Source of the DNA: Halichondria panicea
Lineage: Eukaryota > Porifera > Demospongiae > Suberitida > Halichondriidae
Assembly: GCF_963675165.1 (NCBI RefSeq)
Contig: NC_087377.1
Span: 6,465,122-6,529,121, forward strand
DNA length: 64,000 bases
Reading direction: 5' to 3'
Positions 1,192-47,400 of the stretch are shown here, piece by piece; position 1 is the first letter of the stretch, and each line of letters opens with the position of its first letter. Position numbers and translations under genes: made by a program. Below the pieces are notes generated by a model. It saw only the letters and a program-made list of their open reading frames with translations, was not told the origin of the DNA and did not search any database.

Positions 1192-4139
1192 TTAGTCAGT
1201 GTCGGAATCGGGGCTCGGAAAATGTTCAGCAATCCATACGTCAAGAGGCAATGGCTCAAATGGGGCTTTGGACCATTGTGCAACAGGGAACAAGCTACCT
1301 GTGGTTCCATTTTGGAACACAAAGCTTTTACATTTCAAGACTGGAAACTCAAACCCTTCTACTGGCCAAATGCACATTATTCCCCAGTCAGCATCACAAG
1401 CCTTGCAGTAGATCTTGTGTGTTTTGATCACAGATTCATCGAGTTTGCCAGGCTTGTGATGTGGTTTCTTGACCAGCTTATCTTTTATTTCTTCACCTGG
1501 AACAACGTGGTGTGATGAGCCTTCAGCTGTATATATGTCTGAACCAAAGCAAGCTATTGTTTTGCACTTCCTGCACCGCAACTTGATTCGTTCCCTATCA
1601 CCAGATCGACTTTGCAGACGTTGTTGACGTAAAAGTTTTTTTATGTTCATTTGGCGCATTACGAGTGTCTGTTGCGTTCTTAGCTTCTCATGAAGTATTT
1701 TGCCTTTTGGGAACCAATTGTTTGTAATGATTTTGTTGACAAGCTCGAGGCGCTCTGAATTCTGAATTTCCTTCATGTTCATTGATGAATCACTTGACAG
1801 AATAGTAATCACCTCACTTTCTTCGGCCCGAGCTCGCCCCTGAGTTTGGGCTGTAGCAATTTCATTGGAGACATGTTGAAATCGGATGACAAAATTACAC
1901 GCAGGAACGTCTAGTCCTTCTTCAGCAACTGAAGTTGCCACTAAGATGTTGCTATCTCCACTCCGGAAATTTTCCATGGCAACATGTTGATCAGCTTGTG
2001 TCATTCCATTGCCACCCTGTCCTGTAATGACTATTGGCTTCAAAAAATTATATTGGAGGCTCTGCAGCCATTCGCAAACAGCATAAGCATGACGTTTTTT
2101 CTGTACAAAGAATACTCCACGTGATTTCGTGTTGTTTTGAAATTGCTCATTGATGCATTCTTTAGCTCTTTGTAGGAGTGGATTCTCTACAGGCTGGAGT
2201 GTTTTCAGATGAGATGTCAGGGTGTGGAGACCTATCTTTAATGTTTGCTCATGCTTTGTTGAATTGTGGTCCTCATCAGGTAGGTCCTTGAAATCTTCTA
2301 GAACCTTGATGGCATCTTCTTGTCTTAAGTCCATATAGATGTTCAGAGCTTGGCAATAGCAAACCAGTAGTCTGAGGGTAGAAATCTTATCCCTGAACGT
2401 TGGATTATTGCTAAGTTCTAGTGGCTGCTTGGTTTCACAAGCGACAGTTTCGTATTTCTGAGACCATTTGGGAAACGAAGTCTTTAAAGGTGTATGTCGC
2501 TCAAGTTTAACCATTTCTTCTTTGATCAAGCACACAAATGTTTCGCTTTGACCTCGATTCGAAACAATTTCTCGGCTAAGTGTTGGTTTCCTAACAAACC
2601 GTTCCAAATCGGCCACATTCTGTTGAACAGTGACTATTCCAGCTGAAGCATCTAACAAAGCACAGAGGTTGACTAAATGGTCAATTGTTTTTGTCGTGTC
2701 CAAGTTTGGATTATCACCTGCACCAGGTGAAGCTGTAAGACCAACAATTTGAGGCAGCTGTGCTGAAGGATCTTCGAGCTTGCGACGAATGTAGTGGAAC
2801 ATAAGCTGTGCTTGTAATGATGACTTCCGTGCATGGTGACACTCATCCATTATGACTAAGGTAATTTTGGTTTCGTCGGCTTGAGCTTCTGACGGTAAAG
2901 CTAATCTGACCATGTCGCGATTTAGCTCATCGAGGAATTTCCCGGTCGTACAAACCACAATTTCACATTGGATAAGTGCATCTTTTATTGTGCCGATACT
3001 GTCCCCCACAATGCATTCTACCTGAGCCCCATGGACACACGATTGCAGACTTGCACATTGCTGATCGGCTAGTGGCTTTGTGTGGACCAAGAAAACCACT
3101 TTAGCGATATCACCCGATGCTTGTACCTTTTTCAGATGCTCCGTAATAATAATAGCTGTTACAAGTGTTTTCCCGCTACCAGTTGGAGCTACAAAGATGT
3201 AATTCTCACCCCTAATTCCAGGCTCAGCAAGCTCCTGTTGATAATCTCGAATCTCATGTCCTTCTGGGAGTTTTAGTTGATAACCAGTAGGGATTGGCTC
3301 ACAGCTAGGAGCTTCACAGTCCATGCTAGAGGAATAACCAGCTGAGCTAGCAGATACAGATTCAGGTGGATTTGAAACAGCTATTTGGGGGACCATTTGT
3401 GTTACTTCAATGCACATGGGAATCAGTGGAACATTGACAGATGTGTTGAGTGTTCGGGACGTTTGAGTAGAGCTAGTATTCGTTTGCATGTCAACTTGGC
3501 TGTCTTGTTCCTGCTGGGTAGCCATTGTATTGCCAACGACTTCTGTTATTGTGCCAGGTGGCTGAGTAGCTGACACTGCACAGAAAACAGTATAGTACCA
3601 TATATAGGTAATAATGCTTTTTACTATAATTATAAGAAAGTGAGTGATTCAAAGTTAATTCCCGACTGTACGCTGAATGGGTAATTCCCAGGGACTATAT
3701 AATAATTATTTATACAACACAGCTCAATATCAAAGGAATTCAGTTGTGGCCTATTAGCAAAAACCACTCACCTTGGATTTTACTTTCAAGTGAGGCTACT
3801 GCTTCCTGCAATTCAAGTTCTCTCAAGCATTGTAGGAGAGTCTTCCAAGATACACTTGTCAAACCAGAGCGTACCCACACAGTTATCATTTCCAAGAAGC
3901 AGTCTAGGTCATTTCTGTCGTTCCTTTTCTTTATGTCATCCAGCAACTTTCCCTCGTCATCTCCTACCTCTAGCTCTATCCCAATGTCGTACCACCTTTC
4001 TTTGGCATATGGCCTCACATACTTATTTATGTCTTTCAGTCTCGGTTTTGCATCTGCATTAGAATAAAAAAACATTATGCCATCTATCCATATAGAATAA
4101 GCCAACCAAAATACCTGGGTTCAACAGAATCTCTGACAT
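1192..4139 (-). CDS. RIG-I-like receptor helicase with N-terminal Death-type domain
   Basis: Three exons, 4139-4115, 4053-3772 and 3575-1192, join in frame to 896 codons. The short first exon encodes MSEILLNP. Exon 2 (about residues 9-102) has the pattern of a Death-fold domain, with a conserved W-x2-[IL]-G helix, a 'DLDCFLEMI' segment and an 'SWKTLLQCLRELEL' segment. A Ser/Thr/Gln-rich linker of roughly 100 residues follows. The SF2 helicase core shows Walker A PTGSGKT (about 233-239), motif II DECHH (about 346-350), TASPG and GRARAEES. The tail has two CxxC pairs (CRKC, CKAC), as in the zinc-binding RIG-I regulatory domain that reads RNA 5' ends. Vertebrate RLRs carry CARDs instead. By family, a cytosolic sensor of non-self RNA. 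Dicer is less likely because no RNase III or PAZ follows. Confidence 0.9.
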
Positions 4140-9002: not shown

Positions 9003-10218
9003 TCACTGTTGCTTTGTTTGCTTTTTGGCGACAAGACTCTTGTGGATGTACGGGATAACACCTGCAGTGGGGAAAGTGGTGGCTTAAGCGTTGTTCAGTA
9101 TAATAATTAAAGTGAAACCAACGACGACACATGCTTCTTTGTTCTGAAAATTACTCCGATATTAGGGAGTTAGACATACCGGTAGCATGTAAGGAAACCC
9201 CTTTTAATTCTCACACCTAAAGAGGGGCACAAAGACTAACATGCAGCACTACATAAATACCACTTTTTCCTTTCGGCTCTAACTGTGCACTACTATAATA
9301 GTAGCCATACACTGACTATGTCTTACCTCCACCAGCAATGGTGGCTTTGATCAGAGAGTCCAATTCTTCGTCACCGCGAATGGCCAGTTGCAAATGTCGG
9401 GGAGTAATTCTCTTTACTTTCAAATCTTTTGAGCAGTTACCTGCCAACTCTAGCACCTATAGATAGAACAAAACATATTATGTGAACAGGTACATTTACA
9501 AGAAGCTACAACAGAACCAACATAAAAAAGAAACAAGGTACATGTATGAGAAAAGGGGGAAATACGAATTATATCTGTGATAATGCTCTCAGACCAGTAC
9601 TACAGCTTTCGGCTAAACACTAGAAACGGATACTGAATAGTTCATGTACGATTATTGGTGTCAACTGACCTCAGCAGTGAGATATTCGAGGATAGCTGCA
9701 CTGTACACTGCTGCAGTGGCACCAACTCTACCATGACTGGTGGAGCGTTCCTTCAAGTGACGATGGATCCTACCCACAGGGAACTGAAGTCCTGTGTGTA
9801 TGTGTGTGTTGACTTAAAAATTAGTATGTGCTTTAAATGTACAGTACAGAGTGAACACATTTACATGGTGCAGCAAAAATGTATGTGTGCGACCGGTACA
9901 AAGTACAGTAGAATCTCGATTATCCGGCTTGGCAATTTTCTTTTTAGAAAATGGGCGTGTCCATTAAATGCGCCTGCGCATTACAGATGTTACCATTGGA
10001 TTAAGGCGTGGTTTATCTATTCGATTATCCGGCCTGCCTCTGGAACCAAGCTGTCTGGATAGTCGAGGTTCTACTGTAACGTACATGATGAAAATTTCCT
10101 CAATTCATTAACAGACATAGGGTACTAACGCACCTGCTCTTGTTGACCTTGACACTGCTTTCGCCTTTACTTTGGCATCTTTACCAGCTTTACCTCCTGC
10201 CTGGGTGTGTGTGGCCAT
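9003..10218 (-). CDS. H2AZ: Histone variant H2A.Z
   Basis: Four exons (10218-10134, 9791-9670, 9456-9327, 9061-9003) join in frame to 131 residues, the usual H2A.Z length. The fold contains '[16 protein letters not shown]', '[19 protein letters not shown]' and '[18 protein letters not shown]'. The extended acidic-patch region '[16 protein letters not shown]' and the docking segment 'VIPYIHKSL' mark H2A.Z rather than canonical H2A. The N-terminal tail is Lys/Gly-rich with acetylatable 'GGKAGKD' repeats. The protein replaces H2A in nucleosomes around promoters. Being split by introns also fits a replication-independent variant. The exon 2 acceptor lies behind a CA-rich tract instead of a pyrimidine tract. 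A pogo-like element sits in intron 1. Confidence 0.97.
9906..10076. mobile_element. MITE, pogo/Tc1-like ends
   Basis: About 171 bases with inverted ends 'cagtagaatctcgattatcc' and 'ggatagtcgaggttctactg', flanked by a TA duplication at 9904-9905 and 10077-10078. No ORF of its own. It lies in H2A.Z intron 1. Ends of this kind are typical of non-autonomous elements moved by Tc1/mariner-pogo transposases. Confidence 0.8.
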
Positions 10219-10965
10219 AGTAAATAGCTTAGAATGTACTTCTCAGCTTGATGCATATGGGGGGAAATTATGGTTTGTAGGTAGTACTAGTACAGTACAG
10301 TTACATAGCTACAGGTGGACACTCCTTAAGCTTTTAAGCTTTGAAAGGCTAAATGTAATAGGTTTGGGTATGAGCATTTACATATGTTACCGCTAAAAGC
10401 TTAGAAACAAGCTTAGCTTAGAAACAAGCTTTAAACAGTTTGATGAAAGCTATAAACATTACATTTATAGGGTTAATTACAAATAGGCACACAATAAACT
10501 CTACGGATAACTTTATCTGACCGCCAAAGCTTCCAATACCTTAGGCTTACCATTTCGATTCAGAAGAGTCTTTGTAGAGGTTATTTTGAAGATCCAAAGC
10601 TTAAAACTGATGCCACAAACCAAAATGGCGCGAGTTTGAAGAGCTCAACTATTTACAGTACAAAGTAGTGAAAGAGAGAGGTAAAAATGGACCAATCACA
10701 TTGCAATATTAACCAACATTAGGATGACGCGGTGGTAATCAAGTTCTGCCAAGTCATCATTATTATATTATTTTTTTCTAGTTGTTGTCTGTGTGGCCGT
10801 GGGTACTACCTAATCCCAGAAGAAAAACTTAACAGGTATGTCAGCTATGGCTTAGTCTTAGATCACCTTTTTTATTTATCAGTCTAGTCGAGTCAGATCG
10901 ATCATAGACTCGCTCTAGCTAGTCTAGCACTGGTCGAATGATTTAATATAATTTTCTTGTGTAGA
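10219..10965. promoter_or_regulatory. Divergent H2A.Z / VTI1A promoter region
   Basis: The two genes are transcribed apart from this 747-base stretch. A CCAAT-type 'accaatcac' lies near 10690. A likely VTI1A 5' untranslated exon ends at 10835 (AACAG|GTATGT), and its acceptor (TTGTGTAG) is just before the VTI1A start codon. The splice reading is inferred from consensus only. Confidence 0.5.
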
Positions 10966-18663
<7,698 letters not shown>

Positions 18664-18885
18664 CATTATCTATAATTATAGTGTTCCTGTTTGTGTTTGT
18701 AGCTGTCAGTTCTATGTGTTGTGTTACCTATTTTATGCCAACAAATTTTTACTTGCATGCTGCATGCTGTAACTGTGAGACAATGCACTATAATACGCTA
18801 GCTCCGTTGTGCTACCTGAGTTGTTACATGTAATAATTGTACGTGACAATAATGGCATTCCATAATAATTATAATGTGAATTGAA

Positions 18886-18891
18886 AATAAA
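18886..18891 (+). terminator. VTI1A polyadenylation signal
   Basis: AATAAA lies 223 bases past the VTI1A stop codon and before any Tcf element. Confidence 0.5.
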
Positions 18892-18995
18892 CATGCATCT
18901 TCAATGTAAAACAGTATCATGAACATGCAGGTGTATGTAATAATGAATTAAAAATGCTTTTTTGTGGCGGAAGTGCGTGGGCGATGATAAGCATT

Positions 18996-19277
18996 CCTTT
19001 GAACTCTTCACACACCACAAGAAGATCAAAGACACCTGCGTAACAGAACACGTCATTCCACTCTTATGACGTCATATATGTTGACCAATCAGATTACACA
19101 TACGAGAGTAACTATGAATAAAATTTGACTAAGAAGAAAGGCTTTGAACTGCCTTTGATCTCAACAAGATCAGTAAGACTCTGATTACCGCAGTCAAACG
19201 CGTACAGCTGAGTGACTAACAAACGCTTGTGTGTCTGCGGTAATTATTCAAAGGTGTTTATGTGAGCGGATCAAAGG
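18996..19277. promoter_or_regulatory. Cluster of Tcf/Lef-type binding motifs
   Basis: Six matches to the Tcf/Lef core WWCAAAG on either strand: 18996-19003 (TTCAAAGG reversed), 19023-19031 (AGATCAAAG), 19142-19148 (TTCAAAG reversed), 19152-19161 (AGATCAAAGG reversed, a full consensus), 19247-19254 (TTCAAAGG) and 19269-19277 (GATCAAAGG). The last is 25 bases from the Tcf start codon. A CRE-type TGACGTCA (19067-19074) and a CCAAT box (19085-19089) lie between them. The motifs are seen; autoregulation is inferred. Confidence 0.65.
19067..19074. promoter_or_regulatory. CRE palindrome TGACGTCA
   Basis: Perfect CREB/ATF-type octamer about 230 bases before the Tcf start codon, with a CCAAT box 10 bases downstream. 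Confidence 0.5.
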
Positions 19278-19301
19278 CAGTGGTTATTTGAGCTTATCAG
19301 T

Positions 19302-22300
19302 ATGTCAAACGGTGGAGCCTCGACCAGTGGTGCAAGTAAGTCTTTGTGTTTCTTTGCTTCCATGATGTGTGTACACAGCAATCTACTCAGCTATGATATC
19401 TTCGTATGCATGCCACATTCTAAAGTATTGTGCTGTTGACAAAGTGTTGAGGAATTGTAAAGTTTAAGTTTGCTGTTCTTCATCACCTAATTGTGTTAGC
19501 ATTAAGTGAAAAATGCCAGGCCTTAATAGTGCAGTATAGCCGGTTTTACCTACGTACCTGTACCTAAATTCCTACCAATTTTTGTAGCTATAATTATACC
19601 AATATTGTACGTATATAAATACTATAGGGAAGGCTAAACAAAGGATGCCGGCAACTTGAATTAGCTCGTTTTATGGTACTATATACTGGGATGTAGTTGT
19701 TTGCTGTTGTGTGTGTGTGTGTGTGTTTTAAATGTCTGGGAAAAACCTGCTTATCTTGACAGTTAGTATCTCTCTCCCATGTAAGGCCAACCTACACTTT
19801 AGCACCACACAGACAGGACATATTTTAGTATACACAGATTGTCAATACCTTGTCTGGCCTGTGCTAGTACATCACACCCTTTCTTGACTTTGGGAAGTTA
19901 TGAATTCATACTTGATGTAATTGAGGTTGATGTAATTATGCTAATGTTACAGTTCTGTGTAAACTGCAGCAGTAACACCCTCACACACATGTATGGGGCA
20001 CATAATGGGAAATAAGTACAGCCTGGTTAGCACTCCTCCATGACTTGAATTGTCCAGTGCATTCATCACATCCTGCTCTACTAATCCTATACCTAGCTGC
20101 TCTTAAAATTACATATCACCCACCCTCTAAACACACACTACACACACAGCTCCTGATGATTTTGACGATCACGGGGACACAGTGACAGTGTTTCAACATG
20201 AGGGCGATGGAGAGAACACAGAGCACCTTCAGTCCATGGACCTCCACGATGTCAAGACCGCCCTTGAGAAAGATGCCGAATTGGACGAGGTACGTACTAA
20301 AGCAGACCTCCTGCTGTTGATTTGCCCGTCAGGTTTAGGAGAATACACCTACACTGTACATGTAGTAGTCTGATACAACAATGTAGTTTGCTGAAGTGCT
20401 ATGTCCTGTCACCAGCTAATGTATGTGTGGGATGTGGCACTTCCTCTGATGTGGCTAGCTGTTGGTAGCAAAACCTTTGAAGTTGTGGTGGTGGCTTGAC
20501 CACAGGGGGCACTAATCTTGCTTTCTGAAGGACTGCTATTATCACTAGCTAAAGTAGTAAAGATTGTTCTCCCAGCTACACTGCAAAAGAACACTGGTCT
20601 AATACTCTCAAGCAGTAGCAAAACAAGAAGTGTGGGCACTAGAGATAATGGTTACCTGTTTAGACAGTGAGATATGTGCTTTTTAGTGTTGTGAATTGTG
20701 GCCTATGCTTGTTGCCATTGTTTGTTGTGGTATTGTGCCCTGGTCATTGTTAATGCTGAGGTCTAGACTAATTCAATTACCTGGCCCCACACACTAAATC
20801 CTTGGTGTGCAGCTGGACCTATTTTAGCACTACCTCAGTGGCTAAAATGCCACTTTATAATAGGATCAGCTGCTTGTGTGTGGTTGTGCCTCTATGCTCA
20901 TGCACCTCATCATTCACCATCAACTAGATGCGAGCACTTACATGACAACTAGTACATGTGTATAATTAATTTACATTGCAATCTACTGTACAATTTGTGG
21001 TGCAGTCTGATGTACACTTAGTTGCTGCAATCCACACACACAAACACACAGCCTGGATCAGCAGGCAAGGCGGCTACCTCCCCAACGTCAGCAGGTGAGT
21101 CTCATTCAGGTTAGCTCATTCCCTGTATGGTTAATTGCTTGTGAGTGTTGGCGGTGATTCAAATCTCTCCTCTCCCCCATTGTTCTGCCTAATGTAACTG
21201 CCAACACTTACACTGGGCTGGAACAAAGTATAATAAATAAAGATGCAGTGGTTGCCTGGTATTATGGACTGGTACAGTTTGGGGACATACATGTAGGGCC
21301 TCTAGTGTATCCCGTGTTGTACCAGGTTTGTACTTACAGCCTGTGCATACTTACAGCCTGTGCATCCTAATGGATCAGAATTTAATAGTTCACTGTTTAT
21401 TACGATGATAGCATTTTTAATAAGCACTGTGCTAGTTGTATTGTATTACAGAACTATTTGGGTGGTCTGTAACAATGCTTACAGGTTTTCTGGTAACCAT
21501 TGGAGCTTGTCTTGCTGTGGGAATTGTCATTGGGGAAGGTTGATAGGTTCAACCGGAGTAGTGTAGAGACAATGACACTGTGTATATGTATCCATGTATA
21601 CTGTTCCCAAATGCTATGTCTTATTGACTCTTCTCTCCCTTTTATGCACTAGCTGGCAGTGCTAGTCTTCAGCAAACCACCATTCGTCCCATCATACAAC
21701 CAATGGTGAGTGTGTGTGTGAGAATTTGATTAATTTACACGGAAAGCTTGATTCCATAGATCTAATTTACATTGTTTGTAGAGCCTGATTTAAGTTCATT
21801 TAGTAGAGCTTGTATTATAATTATAGTAACAGCCTTTTGGGAGTGTCATGTACATGTATTGAATAATTATTCTGCAGGTATGTTGTTTCTAGCTTTTGAA
21901 AAGTCCACTATCTCAGTGTGGCCTACCAACAAACACTTCATCACTACTATTGGTTGTAATTTGTCATAAAAGCAATTATGCACTACCTTCAAAGGTTTGG
22001 CTAGTTTGCCTTTGTTTGAAGTACCTGCATGTTGCTTTGAGTGGTAATTGATCACTAGACCCTGGAATGCTTTTAAGTGGGGGGCAATAAATTGCACATT
22101 CCTTCTAAATATAGGATTACAGTTCAGCCATCAACACCCCCTCACACACACTCCTAATGTACTTTCATTCATGCATACACTACTGTACAGCTCTATGCGA
22201 ATGGTTTCATGGTTCCACCCTTTGCTGCTGGAACCTCAATCTTCTCTGCTGGAATAAGACCCATTAAGATGGAGGGATCCGAATGGTAAGTTGTTTAGCT

Positions 22301-25300
22301 TGCAAATAATATCGCATAGCTGGTAATTTTCGGGGTTGACCTCAAACCTCAAACTTGTAATGCCTCGAAAAATAATGGTGATACATGTACCAGGAGTGCA
22401 TGATATTCCTACACTCTTGGTAGTACCCATGATGTTTCCCTGCTGTGTACAAGACTGTTTCTCTGAGTACATGTCTATTGTTCAGGGCTGGCTTATCCAA
22501 TTAAAGTTGTTTATGTTGTGACCCTCAATGTGCAGTTAACTAATTTCATCAACACTCTTAGACAGAACTACAACAACTCTAATGTTTGGAAACTTACAGT
22601 ATAAACTCAGTGCTGTGGATGAGATTTAAACATGTACATGTACGTACTGGCGTGGCAAATACGTACACACAGGTTGCTAAGTGAAGCACTCTGCAACAAA
22701 ATGAATATACAGTGTACATGAATTGTTATGGTAGCAGAGCTTACAAAGTAGAACTAGTGCACCTGTAAGTAGATTTGCCTGGCTTGTATGGCCTTGTTAA
22801 TATTATTGGATTAAGCCTACATGTGCATGTTGTTATAATAAGCAGATTCCCTCCAACCACAACCATGAACAGTTTGTACATGCCCTCACAAGCACACATG
22901 TGCATGCACACCCATAATTTTATAGGAAAGTTTCGCAAGCACCCACAGTAACTGGTATACCGTATAGATACCCAACTGCTGGTTTCCTACCAGTTGACCA
23001 ATCAGGTTTTAGACCTGCCGCTGGCTACCCCTTTATGATTCCCGGGCAGTATGCAGTGGCTACTCGTTATCAACAGGTGAGCAGTCTACATTGTATGTGA
23101 TATATACATGTACGATCATGTATATACTGTAGCTACCGTTTTAATTTCTTGGAACAAGTACCTCAAAAGTTCATTCAAGAACTTGGCACACAGAAGCCAC
23201 TGCATGAATGTTAAGTGCTGTATAATTGTACTCAATTAGTGAATGTTTTCAGTTGTTCGAAGCCAAAAATAGCCACGAACCTTCATGGCTCGAAAGCATT
23301 GCCGTGTTTGCACATTGGTACTGTATAATAAGGTTAGAGCAGCTGTGCTTGCATACCTTACAAGTGGCTCTGAAATGAGTCTCACTGTAGTTTCCTCTCC
23401 CTCCCTCTTTAGTTTACTACCTTCGGACAGCCAGCCCCTAATGCAGCAGTACAACCCAACTCAGGCCTTGTACAACCACAGGTGCGCATGACAGTCAAAG
23501 TCTGTAGTATGAAAATTGTATGGTGCCCTATATTAATAGAGGCAGTGTACGTGTACAGTATGTGTGATCAGTGTGATTCTGACCACAGGTGAAAGAGAAG
23601 AAGCCGCACATCAAAAAACCACTAAATGCATTCATGATCTTCATGAAAACCAAGAGAGCGGAAGTTATAAAGGAGTGCACGTTGAAAGAGTCTGCAGCCA
23701 TTAACCAGATACTCGGCAAAATGGTGAGTGAGTATTATTCTATTCAGTGATTCGTATATAATTATTATATACATTGTAGATTCCTTTGCCTCTTGTCATG
23801 GTGGTTACTATCTTTGATTCCATAACAGTGGCACGCGCTGGATCGCAGTGAACAAGCCACGTACTATGAAATGGCAAGAGAAGAGAGAGCGAGACATATG
23901 CAGGTAGTTACAACAGACTAAAACAATTAATGCATTAATTACTATAATAATTACACATGCAGGCATGTAATTACTTTATTTGGCGGATATGTATAGGAAT
24001 TGATACCCGCATACCTGTACTTGAGACTTGTTTGTGTACGTGTCCATACAACAACACTGTTTATGATTGCCCTATATGAATACATTCCTTGTACATGTAG
24101 TATAGATACAAGCAATCACGTACACACTAAAACTTTTATCAGAAGCTTTTTGTTGCACGTTACACTGTACTTAAATGTCTGCATTAATGCCGTCCTCTAA
24201 CAGATGTACCCTGGCTGGTCAGCACGCGACAACTATGCTGTTCACAAGAAGAGGAAAAAGAGAAAAGCCAAATCTGAGAAGGGGAATGACGAAGGTATGG
24301 ACAGTATCACTAACTATGACAGTCAGGGTTTCATGCAGAGGGGGAGGGCCATGCAAGCATGGGATTCCCCCTGGAATTATGTCATAACAACAACAAAAAA
24401 TTTAATATGGTTGACTTAACGGCTTGAAGCACACAAAACAAATTACAATCATTCCTCAAGATTTTTTACTGGGTGGAGGGGCTACTCAATATCTCCAGGG
24501 CCTTACGCCCATCGTTATCCCCCCGCGCTAAGAGTCCTGTATGAAACCCTGAGTCAATCAAATACATATATTTGCTAAGCCCTTTGCACATTGGTCCTTA
24601 TTATTTTGACCTATACATGTACAAGTCATGTAGCAATACTCAATACGCGTTGGATAAAATTAAAACTGCTTGTGAAGAAACGAGTTAGGTAGCTCACAGT
24701 CATTGTACTTGGGGTGTCCAAATCACTTGTACTTTGTTGTTCCAGTTGAGGGTTCGACTGACAGCTGTGCCCTGGGTGAGAGTGAAGGAGAGAGGTGTCC
24801 TGATAAACATCCAGACAACTCCTCTAACTGGTGTGCACTTTGCAGGTGAGTAAGACTGTAACCCATGCATGCAGGCCCTCGCATAATTACTGTGATGTAT
24901 ACAATCTTGCATCACCTACGTACCACCACACATGCATGATGATTTACACCTTGTACCACAACTCAGAAGAGAATAAGTATACATCCATGAACTTATAATT
25001 ATAACCACTATGATAATCCTCATTATGCATGTACAGTGGCATTACACTACTATATCACTTTTGTGCAGACGTAAAAGAAAGTGTGTCAAACGAAATAACG
25101 ACGATGAGCTAGATATCTCGGATGTCACTAAAAATGGAAAAGTTGCTTCTATTTTGGGAACTGTTGGACAGGATCGCAATGAAGACAGTACATATGTCAC
25201 TACAGAATGCCGGGAGGATGTCATTGTGTTGTCAGAAACTAACCAATCAGAATGCAGTATCATCCAAGCTCCAATCACATTACAAACAATCCCAACATAA
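19302..25300 (+). CDS. TCF/LEF: Tcf/Lef HMG-box transcription factor with C-clamp
   Basis: Twelve exons (19302-19335, 20150-20289, 21052-21094, 21653-21705, 22191-22285, 22926-23076, 23413-23481, 23589-23723, 23829-23903, 24204-24294, 24746-24845, 25069-25300) join in frame to 405 residues. The acidic N terminus '[19 protein letters not shown]' fits the beta-catenin-binding region. A Pro/Gly/Gln-rich middle follows. The HMG box covers about residues 202-272 ('[19 protein letters not shown]', '[17 protein letters not shown]', '[19 protein letters not shown]'), then a basic tail [11 protein letters not shown]-clamp has Cys 313, 325, 328 and 334 ('[12 protein letters not shown]'). It is the nuclear effector of Wnt/beta-catenin signalling. 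The acceptors of exons 2 and 3 are CA-rich. Motifs upstream suggest autoregulation. Confidence 0.95.
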
Positions 25301-25971
25301 AACTACTGAGTGTATACATGTATTTTGTTTCCATGGCGATTGCTGTAGTCTCAATTCGAATGGTTGTTTTCTGTGTCATGAAAGCTCTCAGTCACTTGAC
25401 AGGATATTTTCATACCTCACACACATGCATGCATGCTTTCCAAATCTTCAATTTATTTTCAGCCACATCAAAAAGGATTAAACAACGTATGCTATAACTA
25501 GAATAAATTGATGAACTGAATAATTTGTATATGGAATGCATGCCAGACATAGCCTTATATAATTTAAATGGAACTGCAAGACAATACGTACTCTATAGAT
25601 CTACATGTATATATCAATGATGAAGTTAATTGGTGCTATAACTGTAGCATAATATAATTATGCACCCTCGATTAGCCAAATACATGCAGTCTCAAACCTG
25701 CCAAAAACAAGACGAACCCCAGTTAAGGGGAATTTTGTGTCCCCTTACCTTTTCCATACATGTTTGGGATTCGAGGCATGCCCAAATACGGGAAAAAATT
25801 ACATGCCTCAATTAACTATTAGCAACTTCGTGTGCTGTTGATGGCATTTCTGATGGACGCAGTGCGGGGCACCGTTTATGCGTCAATGGCAGGTAGAGGG
25901 TACAAGATGTGTCTAATTTTTATGTATGTACACGTAGACGTTACTTATGAGATAATGCTATTGTCTTTCCA
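25301..25971. other. Convergent spacer Tcf / DNAI1
   Basis: 671 bases between the ends of two converging genes. AATAAA at 25502-25507 is a plausible Tcf polyadenylation signal. I see no further gene or clear repeat. Confidence 0.6.
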
Positions 25972-28900
25972 TCAGTTTTCCCGTTGCTTCTCGAGTAGTG
26001 GTTCACGCACAAACGAGATAAGTTTCTCAATCCTTGCCACCTCTGTGTCTTTGGTTCGATTCTTCTCCTGTGAGGACATGCAAACTACATGACTTTGTAT
26101 AACAATAGATTCGGAAGAAACGAGGGGCTGGCAACAAGTGAAATCTTGTAATTAATAAGAAATATACTAGAAATACGCCTGTACGATATTAATACTAGGA
26201 GGTATTCCCCCATTACAAGAGCCCACAAGGAACCACGCCTTCTTAGGGAAAAGGGTGTGATCTCCAGTATTGCGGTGCGTACATGAATGAGGAGACTACA
26301 CACTTTCCCTGAACCACAGTGATAGCCTCGAATCCAGCAGTTTCTACGGACAGACAGACACACAAACACACTACCATATATATACCTCGCTGCGCATGTG
26401 CACACCGAGGAATAACATTAAGCCCATGTGATTTTCATACAGTAGTAGGTTATACATATAACTCACCGTGAGGTTCTTCCGGAGGTTAGGAGAGAGTTTG
26501 AGACAGATGACGGTGCCCCTATCATCACCAATGATGACTATCGGATAGACAGGGTTGAAGCACACATGAGTCAGTTTAGTGCGCTTTTTCTGAATCACTG
26601 TGGGATTGAGTACGTGCACATGTAGAAAACAGATAATAATGTACACATAATACAGGTAAATGTTCATGAATGACATTGTACTGCTGCATGTGTCGAATTG
26701 AAGTACATGATACATTTACCTACTACTCTAGAGTGGAGATTTGAAGGGTGAGTACAAACAATGAAACACAAATTCAAAGTACAAGCTGGACACTAGAATC
26801 TAATTTAAAACTATAACTACTTCTGGGACGCCGTGTTCTCATCTTTCACAGCTACATGTATGTCACTCTAGCTCTCACCTGATTGGACGCAGAGTGGCTC
26901 GTACTTGTTGATACTGAGGTCAAACACATACGCCTTGCCACCTGCAGTTACAGCAGCAAATACAGTAGAGCAATATGGCGACCATGCCACGTCTCCAACA
27001 ACATTGTTGAGGTCAAAGGAGAACATTGGATTCCTGTAGAGATATTACAGACAAAATTGATGCAAGTAGATCTAACATTAGGAGGCAAACATTATTGAGA
27101 CTGACACACACATCACATTGCATGCAGTACCTTAAACGTACAGTCTGTATAAAATACGTTGTCAAGGTAACAAGGATGTAATAAAGGTCATACAGTCCCT
27201 TCCGTGTTATATTAGCCTCGAGGCATTACTTGGTAAGGGATCGTTGTGATATAAAACACATAATTTATAGCATGAGAATCCTCCCACCACTTATCAGGGG
27301 CATAACTAGCAATGAGGCAGAGGAGGCCCTTGCCTCCTGTACTATTGAACTTCAAGTGCCATGTGACTCAGCTTTTAATAGCTCTGGCTAGCTAACTTCT
27401 GGATAACTAGCCAACTAGGTATATAGAATGAGCAGAAAATGAGCTCTGTCACCGTCTTGTTGACGAAAAAAGGAGAAGAAGAGCAGGTAAATAGCAGTTA
27501 TACTGCCATTTATCTGCATTCTAGCGATAATTAGTGGGTGTGGTTTTCGGTTAAACATTTTGCGGGGGCGTTGCCTCCTTCCTGTAAAATTTCTAGTTAC
27601 TCCCCTGCTTATTATACAGCATGCTTAGTTACTTTCTAGTGTGGTCCCATATTTTGACTGTCCAGTCAGCTCCACAAGAGGCAAAAACATTTTGATGGAA
27701 AGGGTTCCAGCTGATGGAGTGTACTGCCATGTGATGGGCCTGTGAGATGTGTGGAGGAGGGTTGTGATGGCATACATCTACACACATGATATGTACACAA
27801 TATAATTTCCTTGTATGTTTGTCCTAACCAAGTACCAACATGTAGTCAGGCTGTACACGTGTAGCTACGTACAGTACGTACATGTACATGTGCGCACACG
27901 CTTTATTTGTTTTACGCATTAATAATGATCATACATGTACCGTATTTACTTGATTAAACGCCCGGGCGTTTATTTCAGATCAAAGTCTTTAGAGGGGGCG
28001 TTTAAACGAGGAGGGCATTTAATCCAGGAGGACGTTTATTGTTATGTCTACTCGAAAACTCTTGCACAGCAGCAGTTATTGTGCTCTTTTTGGGCTGCTG
28101 TCTCAGCTTAAATCTATTTCTCAGCTTAAAAGTCATAGGAGTGCCCTCTGTGTCGGTAACTCTCTCTCTCCATCGATTCATCATAAAAAGTATTATTATT
28201 CTATGCTGCCATGCTTGCAACTGGGTTTCACATGCTATTTCAGCTCCACCCACAGTGCCACGCCCCATATATGGGTGATTATTTAAGATGGGCGTTTACA
28301 GAGCTTTTATCCTGGGCGTTTAAACGAGATGGGCGTTTATTCAAGGAGGGCGTTTAATCAAGTAAATACGGTATGTACTTGTAGGTGCCGGTAATTTTGT
28401 ATTACAAAAATGTGTACCTTGTACACGTCGAGGTAGTGGGTAGTGTAGGCTTTAGAGCACTTGTAAATCTGGCCCTCTTCAGAGCCAACTAAGAACAAGT
28501 GGTCAACAAATGGACTGAATCCAATCGCTGTACCAGAGCCTGTGTATAGGGTGGACACAATAATTATTATACAGTACGTGCATGTATAAATAATACTTGG
28601 GATTAACTAGGAAACTGCCGTATACCAGGTTTCGAATGTGAGACTCTTTTGAATGCGAATTGCGAGTTTTTGCATAGGAGGCAAACGAAAGACCCGCAAA
28701 GGAGAGAGAATGCGCATACAGTTACTAAAATTGCAACAGTTGAAAACGCAATCAGGCTTGTACAAATGTTATTCGCAATGACAACTACGTTGTCAAAACT
28801 GGATATATGGTAGTATGTACATGTACATGAACTTCACTTGCTGTACATGTATAATATAGAATGCACAAATTGCAGAGAGTGCTTACTGAGTGTGAAATCC

Positions 28901-30108
28901 TTCTGCCCCTCGACACTGTTCTTGAGTGTAAGAGCATCTTGGAATTGAAGCTCATTTTTGACCAGTTTCCATGTGACCACTCGACCGTCAGCAGACACAG
29001 AGTAGAAGTTGAGGTTGCCATCCATATCATTTTTCTGCCAGCTCACCTACGCCATAAATAGAGTGTCCAATTTATCAAGTTACATGCATTGAAAAACAGT
29101 ACTATACTGGGGGAATTCAAGGCCTAAAATGTAGCGTTTTGTGTGCAACCCCTCAAACAAACGCCACCTCTGTATAGTAACCCATAGCTTTGTTCCATAA
29201 CAGTGTTTGTAACACAGCTAGAAATCGAGTGCCAACACTTTTTTGGGGGTGATAATTACATGCATACGAACACACCGTAGTGACTTGCATACCTGCCAGA
29301 CAGGGTCTGAATGTTTCCCGGTGTTAGCGGTGGCCTTGTAGATGGCCTCTTTAGAGTTCTCTTGAAGGTCATAGACGAGCACAGTGCCATCATAGAGCCC
29401 TGCGGCCACTAGGTAGGGGTGCTCAGGGTGTATGTCCAAACACATCACTCCACTGGGGGTCTCAAAGATATACCTGGAGGGGGGGGGGGGGTAACATTGC
29501 ATGTTATAAAAGTACATGTGTTCAGACTATTGTTACAGGTAAAAAGATCCTTATGTGTGCTCATTAAAATCGTACACTTGTACACAAAGCAATCATTGGT
29601 AACTGGCATTGAAACAGGAAATACCACGAGAAGACACATGCACTTTGCATGCTGGTGACAACGTACTCAGGATAGGTTGGGTTCTTCAGAGAATGGAAGC
29701 AAATCAACCCTCCACTGCCTTGATCAGTGAACTCATCTGAAACAAAAGGAGGCATGCTAAGCAAGGCACAGCTACATGTAGTACAGTGATAGTGGTCACC
29801 CCAACAGTGGTGCTGTAATAAAGAGGTGGCATGCTAACACACGTCAAAACACACGCTATGAAGACTTTTGGACTCATTAACCTAGCTACATGTAGGTGAC
29901 CTGATTACAGGATTACAACAATAGACAGTGTTCACTGTACTCACAAGAACCACGACCCACAGCAAACAGGTCACTGTACAGAGGGTTCCATGACAGTGCT
30001 GTAATAGCTGCTTTTCGAGCCGCCTTGTCAAATTTGAACCGCCAGAGGGGAAGCATTGAGCCCACATTATCTCTAAACTGGTCTCCAGGGTCATCATAAT
30101 ACTTGAAA

Positions 30109-30188
<80 letters not shown>

Positions 30189-44432: not shown

Positions 44433-47400
44433 TTATAACAAAGTTTTAGACAAAGTGTTCTCAGAGAGACACTTACAAACACGGAGAGCCACATCACCTC
44501 TTCTTAAGTCCAGTACAATAACCAGCAGCGCTCTATAAGTTGCTGCAATAGGGTTAGGCTGACCCCACAGTTTGAGTGCTTTCGCCATAGCTATTTGTGT
44601 ACCACTGCGACAAGCCAGATCTTGGATATCAGTTTGCTGTCCAGGAAGCAGACCAAGATTGTAGATGTAAGTATCGACATCATTAAAACAGGCGGCAATG
44701 TTGTGAAGGTCATTTTCTTTGAGAAGTGCATTCAGCTGGTTGTCAGTGACTCCGGTTTTTCTCATTAGATTATCAATCGTTACGACTCCACCATCTGTGA
44801 CAATAATTCATGGGTTTGTGTTGTAAGTGCATATAGAAGTATACATGATTACCAAATACCAATCAAAGGGGCTTGAACTTTGACCACATACCTGTGCTTA
44901 TTGCTTGGGGCACCGGTAACACTGGCAATAAGTCCTCTTCAAACTCCTTAGGAGGGATATCAGCGATTTCCTGAACACAAGAATTCCGATAAAATGTCAT
45001 CTAATATTGATCATTATAGATTAGATATAACACAGGGGGTGGTCACGCACAAAGAAAGTCTACGAGGAAAGTTATACTGAAACAAAAATTGATGACAGAA
45101 CAGTAAGTCAGGTAACTTAGCTCACCATGGGGTTTTTTCCAGCAAAAATACTTAGAGGATCCAAAATATGTCTGAGTGAACTGTACGTGCCTTCACTTCT
45201 TTCCCTCCATGACGTAAGTACTTTTCGTAGACTTTCAACACCTAATTGTGGTGTGGTCACACATTCTGTGGTGGTAAGTGCGGAGTAGATGATCTTACTG
45301 ATTTGAGAATTCTTAGACCAAAAGGAAGAAACGGCTGAAATGTATCGATCAGATATTGTTGAATTGTAAATTGCATCGTTTTCGTTGAACAAAGATCGAA
45401 GAACGTTTTCACCAAGATGAACATACACGTCAAACAATTGGTTAAGTTGCACAGTACACTGACCATTATTCGAAACAACTCCTAGTTCACGATTAACAAT
45501 GCTCTGTGCGACTGTTTTAATACTGAATAGCTTTGCTATCGATAATTCAATAGGATAATTAACTGAAGCTGGTGCGAGAATTTGCTCAGCTGTGCTTACA
45601 GATGGACAGACATCACTAACAGCCTTGAGAACTTTCTTTATGACCACTGAGCGTAACGTTAAACATTCCAAAGATTGTTCGCGGGTCTGAAGCAGTACGA
45701 TAGTTTTATTGTGATCGATAACTTCAACAACAACTTTTGCACCTTGACTAATGCTCCAACAGATACCTGTTTTCCAGACTGAACATTGGTGCTGTAAAGT
45801 AGGAACATGAGACTTTATTTCGGGGGCAATAACTTGAGAGAAAGCCAGTCTGAGAATGAGAATTTGTTGAAACCTTGCATCAAAAAACTGATTCCTATCG
45901 ACACAAGACAGCATCCAGCCGAAAGAATGTTTCATATTCTCCCAAATTCCCCTTGGAGGATCTAATCGGATAAGTGCAGGACAGAATATGTGTTTGTTAT
46001 TCCTGTCTTGAGGAAAATGCTCTTTGTTAAGAAGTTCGAGGACTTCCCCATCTTCAATTGGTACAGCAAGTTCGAGATTAAATAAAAATCCGGTAAGCAC
46101 TTCAACCTCAACATCTGGAATATATGTGGAAAGTTTTGAGTTTGGAACCACACCAGTGCTTGTAGAGAGTTCACAGTGCTGTTTAAAGTTTTCAGGAGCG
46201 AAGATAGTACCGTTAACTTTACTCAAGAGTGCTGTCTTGTTGAGAACTATGAAACTCTTTTCAGGTGATGTATTATTGTGTAGAAAAAGAATGTGACTTT
46301 TGTCATTTAACTGGACACAGATCTCAACAAGATGAGGAATCGTATTTGGAATAAACGAAAGTATTTCTCTATCTCTTCTAGAAAGACTGCAATCAGCATC
46401 AGCATTAATTTTCTGTTGCACTTCTTCAAGTTGAACTGCAATCTCTTTAGCATACTTATCAAGAAGGAAAATGAGAAGCATATGAGAGTTCAATGTTACA
46501 GTCAGTTTAGATCGAATTACTGAACAGCTCGTTTCCAATGAACGTCGAAGCAACGTCAAACCTTCTGACTGTGGATAGCGGCAATCCATTGCAATGGTCT
46601 TAACCAGATCGAAAGTTGAATTGTTTGAAATTGATTGTGTGATGAGTCGCTTCTTTCTATCAATTGACGTTGTTTGCGCAACCTGGTCGACATGACTACC
46701 AACTACAATGAGAGGGGCTTTGCATTGCATATTGTCGCATTGATTGGAAATTAGACCTAACCAATACGATATTGAACGTATAATGGCGTCATCGTCTCTA
46801 TGAAGACCTAAAACGAGCAAAAAAATTGGGGGACATGTATTAACAACTGACTTGACGATCGCAGCATGACTGCTGTAGTACGTATCTTGCCCTGCAAAAT
46901 CAAACACTTCGACATCTCCAAACACCTGACTCTTGAAAAGTTTCGTAACAATACCAGCTGTTTGTTGGTTAACATCAGTGACCTGTTGCGGAGATCTAGA
47001 GGTGAACCACCGCTCAGTTAGATTTTGTAGGAAAGAAGGCTCTTGCTCCATCGATTTTACAAGTGTGCTTTTGCCTTCACCGCCACGACCAATGATGAAA
47101 AGTTTCACTGGATTGGTCAAGGGATCCAAGAATTTGCCTACTATTTTTGAGTAAGCATCTTTGCTGTGTGCTCCATATTGAAGTAGAACTCGAATGATCT
47201 CATTTTGGTGTGTCAAAGCCAATGGTGTCTGTCCGGATTTGGTTGCAGGGGCTGTAGAGGGAAAGGATCGTGGATCAACAAATCATTTTATTATTGTTAA
47301 TTATCAGCCCTTTATGTAATGATTACAGCCTCGCCTCTATACCCATTTAAGAAAAGTGTAAATTTTTTGCATTTCCTGTAATAAAAGGAGAGGGTTTTTG

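Follow-up and report, generated by a model that had tools for sequence, protein, structure and literature searches.

Control of a Tcf/Lef gene by its own product is a known kind of regulatory loop, because mammalian Lef1 and Hydra tcf both provide precedents. The Lef1 promoter contains four consensus sites and responds to beta-catenin, and the arrangement is termed a positive feedback loop (excerpted text of PMC3502537); LEF1 also responds to Wnt3a in endothelial cells of human origin (excerpted text of PMC3269378). In Hydra, the induction of tcf is lowered by the TCF inhibitor iCRT14, for which the authors write of a potential autoregulatory relationship (excerpted text of PMC8049744). In fly and worm, as far as the available sections of PMC3916239 go, basal repression works through HMG sites alone and largely does not need the nearby helper sites that activation requires, and dense perfect clusters like that of TOPFLASH are absent from endogenous Wnt response elements. 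Among the matches listed in the literature searched, we found no Tcf-bound element from a sponge.

We analyzed a window of 64,000 bases from the sponge Halichondria panicea, that is, the whole stretch of DNA presented above, which sits in contig C1 of a 131-Mb genome of 39 contigs. A first-pass annotation had reported six WWCAAAG cores at positions 18996–19277 in front of a Tcf/Lef gene, and this count was exact. Each core recurs in a second copy of the locus (copy B), which is described below.

18997..19003, minus strand: core 1, TTCAAAG, in the context GAGTTCAAAGGAA; kept in copy B
19025..19031, plus strand: core 2, ATCAAAG, in the context AAGATCAAAGACA; kept in copy B
19142..19148, minus strand: core 3, TTCAAAG, in the context CAGTTCAAAGCCT; kept in copy B
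19153..19159, minus strand: core 4, ATCAAAG, here forming the complete AGATCAAAGG; same orientation as core 3, at a distance of 11 bases; kept in copy B
19247..19253, plus strand: core 5, TTCAAAG, in the context TTATTCAAAGGTG; kept in copy B
19270..19276, plus strand: core 6, ATCAAAG, in the context CGGATCAAAGGCA; kept in copy B

The single complete AGATCAAAGG that had been claimed was recovered on the minus strand at the core starting at 19153, and the nearest core does lie 25 bases from the start codon, with its last base at 19276 and the ATG at 19302. All six cores are at most 305 bases upstream of this ATG, in the gene's own proximal promoter, and form three close pairs with start-to-start distances of 28, 11 and 23 bases and mixed orientation. 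The locus therefore resembles mammalian Lef1 as a Tcf/Lef gene with several consensus Tcf/Lef sites in its own promoter (excerpted text of PMC3502537), but here there are six sites within 282 bases beside the ATG, they belong to a Tcf with a C-clamp-like region, and they are predicted from sequence. It also recalls Hydra head regeneration, in which tcf induction requires Tcf activity, although the evidence in Hydra is at the transcript level with an inhibitor and that in the sponge consists of promoter sites (excerpted text of PMC8049744). With TOPFLASH and POPTOP the cluster shares a dense array of HMG sites (typically 4–7) without helpers, but it lies in a natural promoter, its orientation is mixed, its sites fall into three pairs and not all of them are perfect consensus.

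The second position of the core was T in all six cases, giving WTCAAAG throughout. The flanking bases, which played no part in the core definition, leaned toward the consensus AGWTCAAAGG with a combined flank score P of 0.0002 against 137 background sites: G was found at -1 in five of the six cores (background 0.23, P 0.003), G at +1 in four (P 0.05) and A at -2 in four (P 0.08). The flanks were near consensus in four or five of the six sites, and the array is not uniformly perfect. CAAAG is also common to Sox and direct-repeat receptor motifs, and this sharing would allow the sites to serve another factor, either a member of the Sox family or a nuclear receptor with CAAAG-containing half-sites. 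However, the Sox-like AACAAAG did not occur in 18996–19277, the bases following CAAAG (GAA, ACA, CCT, GCA, GTG, GCA) contained no second half-site as judged by eye, and three of the six cores read ATCA rather than the GTCA or TTCA of a receptor site, likewise by eye. Both candidates were rejected on the missing AACAAAG and the missing second half-site, and we consider service to such a factor highly improbable.

The gene downstream of the cluster occupies 19302–25300 on the plus strand and was modeled as 12 exons encoding 405 residues without internal stops, with splice sites placed by eye.

19302..19335, plus strand: Tcf exon 1 with the start codon (splice sites by eye)
20150..20289, plus strand: Tcf exon 2, acidic N-terminal region (likeness to the beta-catenin-binding part by eye)
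21052..21094, 21653..21705, 22191..22285, 22926..23076 and 23413..23481, plus strand: Tcf exons 3–7
23589..23723, 23829..23903 and 24204..24294, plus strand: Tcf exons 8–10, HMG box and basic tail (PF00505, LEF1 2lef)
24746..24845 and 25069..25300, plus strand: Tcf exons 11–12, C-clamp-like stretch of 13 residues and C-terminal tail (by eye)

The predicted HMG box matched PF00505 at 2.3e-20 and, among solved structures, LEF1 (2lef) at 1.7e-36 with capicua as the runner-up at 4e-12, and on this basis we identify the predicted gene as Tcf/Lef with an HMG box of the LEF/TCF type. The N-terminus encoded by exon 2 (...DLHDVKTAL) resembles, as judged by eye, the beta-catenin-binding part of Tcf proteins; Pfam PF08347 had no match in the protein at E 0.1 nor in the genome search, in which the control genomes were also without a match. 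The C-clamp-like stretch spans exons 11–12 and is preceded by further cysteines (by eye), and a C-clamp downstream of the HMG box is typical of most invertebrate Tcfs. A genome search with the HMG region returned ten matches, six at the window locus and one other locus together and four at weaker places with at most 36% identity, and in the 131 Mb a LEF-type gene was found only at this locus and its own copy. With a 100-aa HMG-box query, viral contigs gave 16 pattern matches and prokaryote contigs 174, of which none was confirmed in either set, and no relative was found in them. Elsewhere in the window, an open frame of 818 aa at 1192–3648 on the minus strand contains a DEAD helicase and a RIG-I C-terminal domain (RIG-I-like receptor), and one of 721 aa at 45117–47282 on the minus strand contains a weak Roc domain, under Pfam's cut-off, and an ankyrin-like start as judged by eye.

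Upstream of the Tcf gene, the frame of another plus-strand gene ends near 18660 with a hydrophobic tail and then a stop (end placed by eye), and the core cluster is positioned between the end of that gene and the Tcf ATG, together with the following elements.

18900..19301, plus strand: compact intergenic interval, taken as the proximal promoter of the Tcf gene and probably its 5' UTR, delimited from sequence
19067..19074, no strand assigned: palindromic TGACGTCA, 0.003 expected in the interval
19085..19089, plus strand: CCAAT box, 0.5 expected by chance
19184..19244, no strand assigned: inverted repeat ATTACCGCAG / CTGCGGTAAT, kept in copy B
19260..19265, plus strand: ATG-TGA start-stop, 42 bases ahead of the Tcf start codon, which would make a very short upstream reading frame if it is transcribed

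We take TGACGTCA at 19067..19074 to be a cAMP-response-type element, and a further ACGTCAT was found near it at 19050–19056. The TGCGGT contained in the ATTACCGCAG / CTGCGGTAAT repeat resembles the Runx core. The ATG-TGA start-stop, which is missing from copy B through a 10-base difference, could reduce translation if it is transcribed.

We then compared the cluster with chance expectation. The first-pass figure of 0.14 cores expected in the interval is correct for uniform bases and too low for the composition of this DNA, for which the window's own rates give 0.30 for WWCAAAG and 0.15 for WTCAAAG. Over the entire window WWCAAAG is slightly in excess, with 70 occurrences against 56 in shuffles (s.d. 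8; 70 or more in 6 of 100 shuffles). The comparison with shuffled sequence that had been proposed as a check came out in favor of the cluster, since dinucleotide shuffling of the interval never produced six cores in 20,000 trials and the maximum was 4 for either motif. When the whole window was shuffled (n = 300), the densest WTCAAAG cluster per 282 bases was 4, while WWCAAAG reached six in one shuffle and five in one. The motif was also recovered without prior choice, because WTCAAAG ranked first among the 10,131 one-degenerate 7-mers from the interval (n = 6, expected 0.137, Poisson P 8e-9), where 7-mers were drawn from both strands and motifs and reverse complements were counted as separate entries. 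Among 840 motif column permutations, only one, the true motif, reached 6, and the counts of 4 and 5 were its own shifted extensions.

Outside both Tcf promoters, no 282-base window held more than four WTCAAAG (1,947 half-overlapping windows, ∼275 kb, from 13 less redundant sequences; four in one window), and this maximum elsewhere in the sampled genome sequence was reached once, near a gene on contig C17. The looser WWCAAAG is less exclusive, with two further places (C1:6543607 and L046) at which a 282-base stretch contains five. A negative binomial fit, which allows for clumping, gave a P of 4.8e-6 per window for six or more, or ∼2 such windows per 131 Mb, and its Poisson counterpart gave 0.004 windows with six or more in 131 Mb; these rarity estimates derive from about 275–332 kb, mostly one region of contig C1, and the 332-kb set includes overlapping loci. 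The WTCAAAG cluster is statistically real and of Tcf type.

At the C17 place, four WTCAAAG were found in less than 160 bases (L047 45–203, corresponding to C17:232246–232404) near a gene with a DIX domain; the cluster lies past the 3' side of the matched DIX exons, which are on the minus strand, and outside any demonstrated promoter. Five nearly equal DIX-domain matches were also found within 280 kb at C3:7793044–8072323, which may reflect recent amplification of a gene resembling Axin or Dishevelled.

A 19-base stretch of the core cluster had two occurrences in the genome, the second of which belongs to an inverted duplication.

Window 10089..30131, corresponding to C1:6798712–6777500: segment of ∼20 kb duplicated in inverted orientation 305 kb away, carrying the second Tcf copy

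The duplication lies in a context of 120 kb without N, and the flanks on both sides were unrelated by BLAST. One of its edges falls in a GT repeat. Separately, a long GT and CT simple-repeat tract at 13360–13930 of the window produces spurious open frames in several frames. Over 17.5–26.7 kb of the window, alignment of the two copies covered 8,938 bases and showed about 175 substitutions (2.0%) in addition to indels. In copy B the Tcf frame is open over the aligned exons and the last exon is 126 bases shorter, so that a second, nearly complete Tcf gene is present. A single Tcf gene is ascribed to Porifera (excerpted text of PMC3916239), and copy B may therefore have arisen by recent duplication in this lineage or be a misplaced allele; a true duplication seems the likelier.

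Copy B retains all six cores with altered spacing, 111 more bases lying between cores 4 and 5 and 10 fewer, about one helical turn, between cores 5 and 6, and its cores are more spread, with at most four per 282-base window. The substitution-free stretch at 19051–19316 was the fourth longest of 153 such runs. Retained cores with changed spacing would fit selection on the cores rather than on their spacing, which we offer as an illustration only. Conservation between the copies was rejected as proof of function, and it is a weak test because a divergence of 2.0% predicts less than one change in the 42 core bases.

The same comparison bears on whether the cluster is a product of chance or of repeats without function. 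In favor of such an origin are the roughly two clusters of this size anticipated genome-wide by the clumped fit and an exact 13-base inverted repeat that joins the region of core 4 to core 6, through which some sites may stem from local copying. On the other side, the cluster adjoins a LEF-type gene present only here and in its own copy, its flanks match the Tcf site, and copy B keeps the cores though their spacing changed. We regard a functionless cluster as very unlikely, and accidental placement of one of so few WTCAAAG clusters at the start of a Tcf gene as unlikely, the sample being small and regional.

A promoter packed with the site type of its own protein suggests self-control of the Tcf gene, and Tcf probably controls its own gene through the putative promoter sites, with either sign. 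As for that sign, the interval resembles the bipartite HMG-helper elements of fly and worm in offering HMG sites for a C-clamp type Tcf, but unlike them it is without an exact GCCGCCR, GCSGS or GCCRAnW helper. Within 411 bases GCCGCCR had no exact match and a single one-mismatch match at 18965–18971, 25 bases before core 1, where 0.58 were expected, and neither GCSGS nor GCCRANW was found in 18900–19310. In fly and worm, helpers and HMG sites are no more than about 10 bases apart, and no helper was so placed here, as judged with fly, vertebrate and worm consensus sequences that may not be those of the sponge Tcf.

Since no good C-clamp helper site was found, a positive Wnt loop is no more likely than repression or self-limitation. 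In a loop of the negative sign, Tcf with a co-repressor would keep the Tcf level low and steady, and the effect of Wnt would be small. Cores without helpers match the repression arm of the switch, whereas helper-free dense arrays activate in reporters such as TOPFLASH (both from excerpted text of PMC3916239). In Halisarca, TCF stays at baseline and is equal between regeneration stages (excerpted text of PMC8235796), and this flat level also speaks for negative autoregulation, which we tentatively hold to be possible.

With the positive sign, beta-catenin/Tcf would directly raise Tcf transcription via the six sites, in a feedback inherited from the animal ancestor. The site cluster with its Tcf-like flanks and the Lef1 and Hydra tcf precedents argue for this, but good helpers, reported as required for activation in fly and worm (excerpted text of PMC3916239), were missing from the promoter, and in Ephydatia tcf mRNA is found in the choanosome, a different region from the periphery, where the wnt and beta-catenin transcripts occur (excerpted text of PMC5797367). 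The lack of a stage change in Halisarca TCF also counts against positive feedback; neither sponge dataset favors a simple positive loop, and both are compatible with autoregulation. The 13.0 kb fetched around four Wnt genes, a number obtained by grouping ten exon matches from three places, contained six WTCAAAG and no cluster, and Wnt genes without clusters count against a simple positive Wnt loop. Positive feedback inherited in this way thus appears doubtful. The first-pass proposal of an autoregulatory Wnt loop accordingly held for the Tcf/Lef identity, the Tcf-type cluster and its promoter position, while a simple positive loop was disfavored by the missing helpers, the Wnt genes and the sponge expression data. 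The further step to an ancestral loop already present in sponges gained no support from the present results.

Positive feedback and negative autoregulation are two signs of the same explanation, namely self-control by Tcf. Under this explanation, the six AGWTCAAAGG-like sites would be putative binding sites of Tcf/Lef-type HMG-box factors, the most likely of which is the protein encoded by the gene itself, and Tcf would occupy the cluster. Without beta-catenin, Tcf and a putative Groucho-type co-repressor would hold their own gene down; with beta-catenin present, this repression would be lifted or reversed, and the outcome would be an autoregulatory switch. A dense TOPFLASH-like array might also activate without helpers. 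Six sites with no good helper thus point either to a promoter that the gene's own protein represses or to a rare natural TOPFLASH-like array. As a bolder and distinctly unlikely extension, a natural helper-free array of the latter kind could mean that direct self-regulation of Tcf predates the sponge split, and that Wnt response elements originally relied on dense HMG sites and not on HMG-helper pairs like those known from fly and worm.

If functional, the cluster would provide direct cis-regulatory evidence of Tcf self-control outside cnidarians and bilaterians. With a promoter of ∼400 bases available in two natural variants, the locus would also offer a compact test of Wnt/Tcf output in an early-branching animal.
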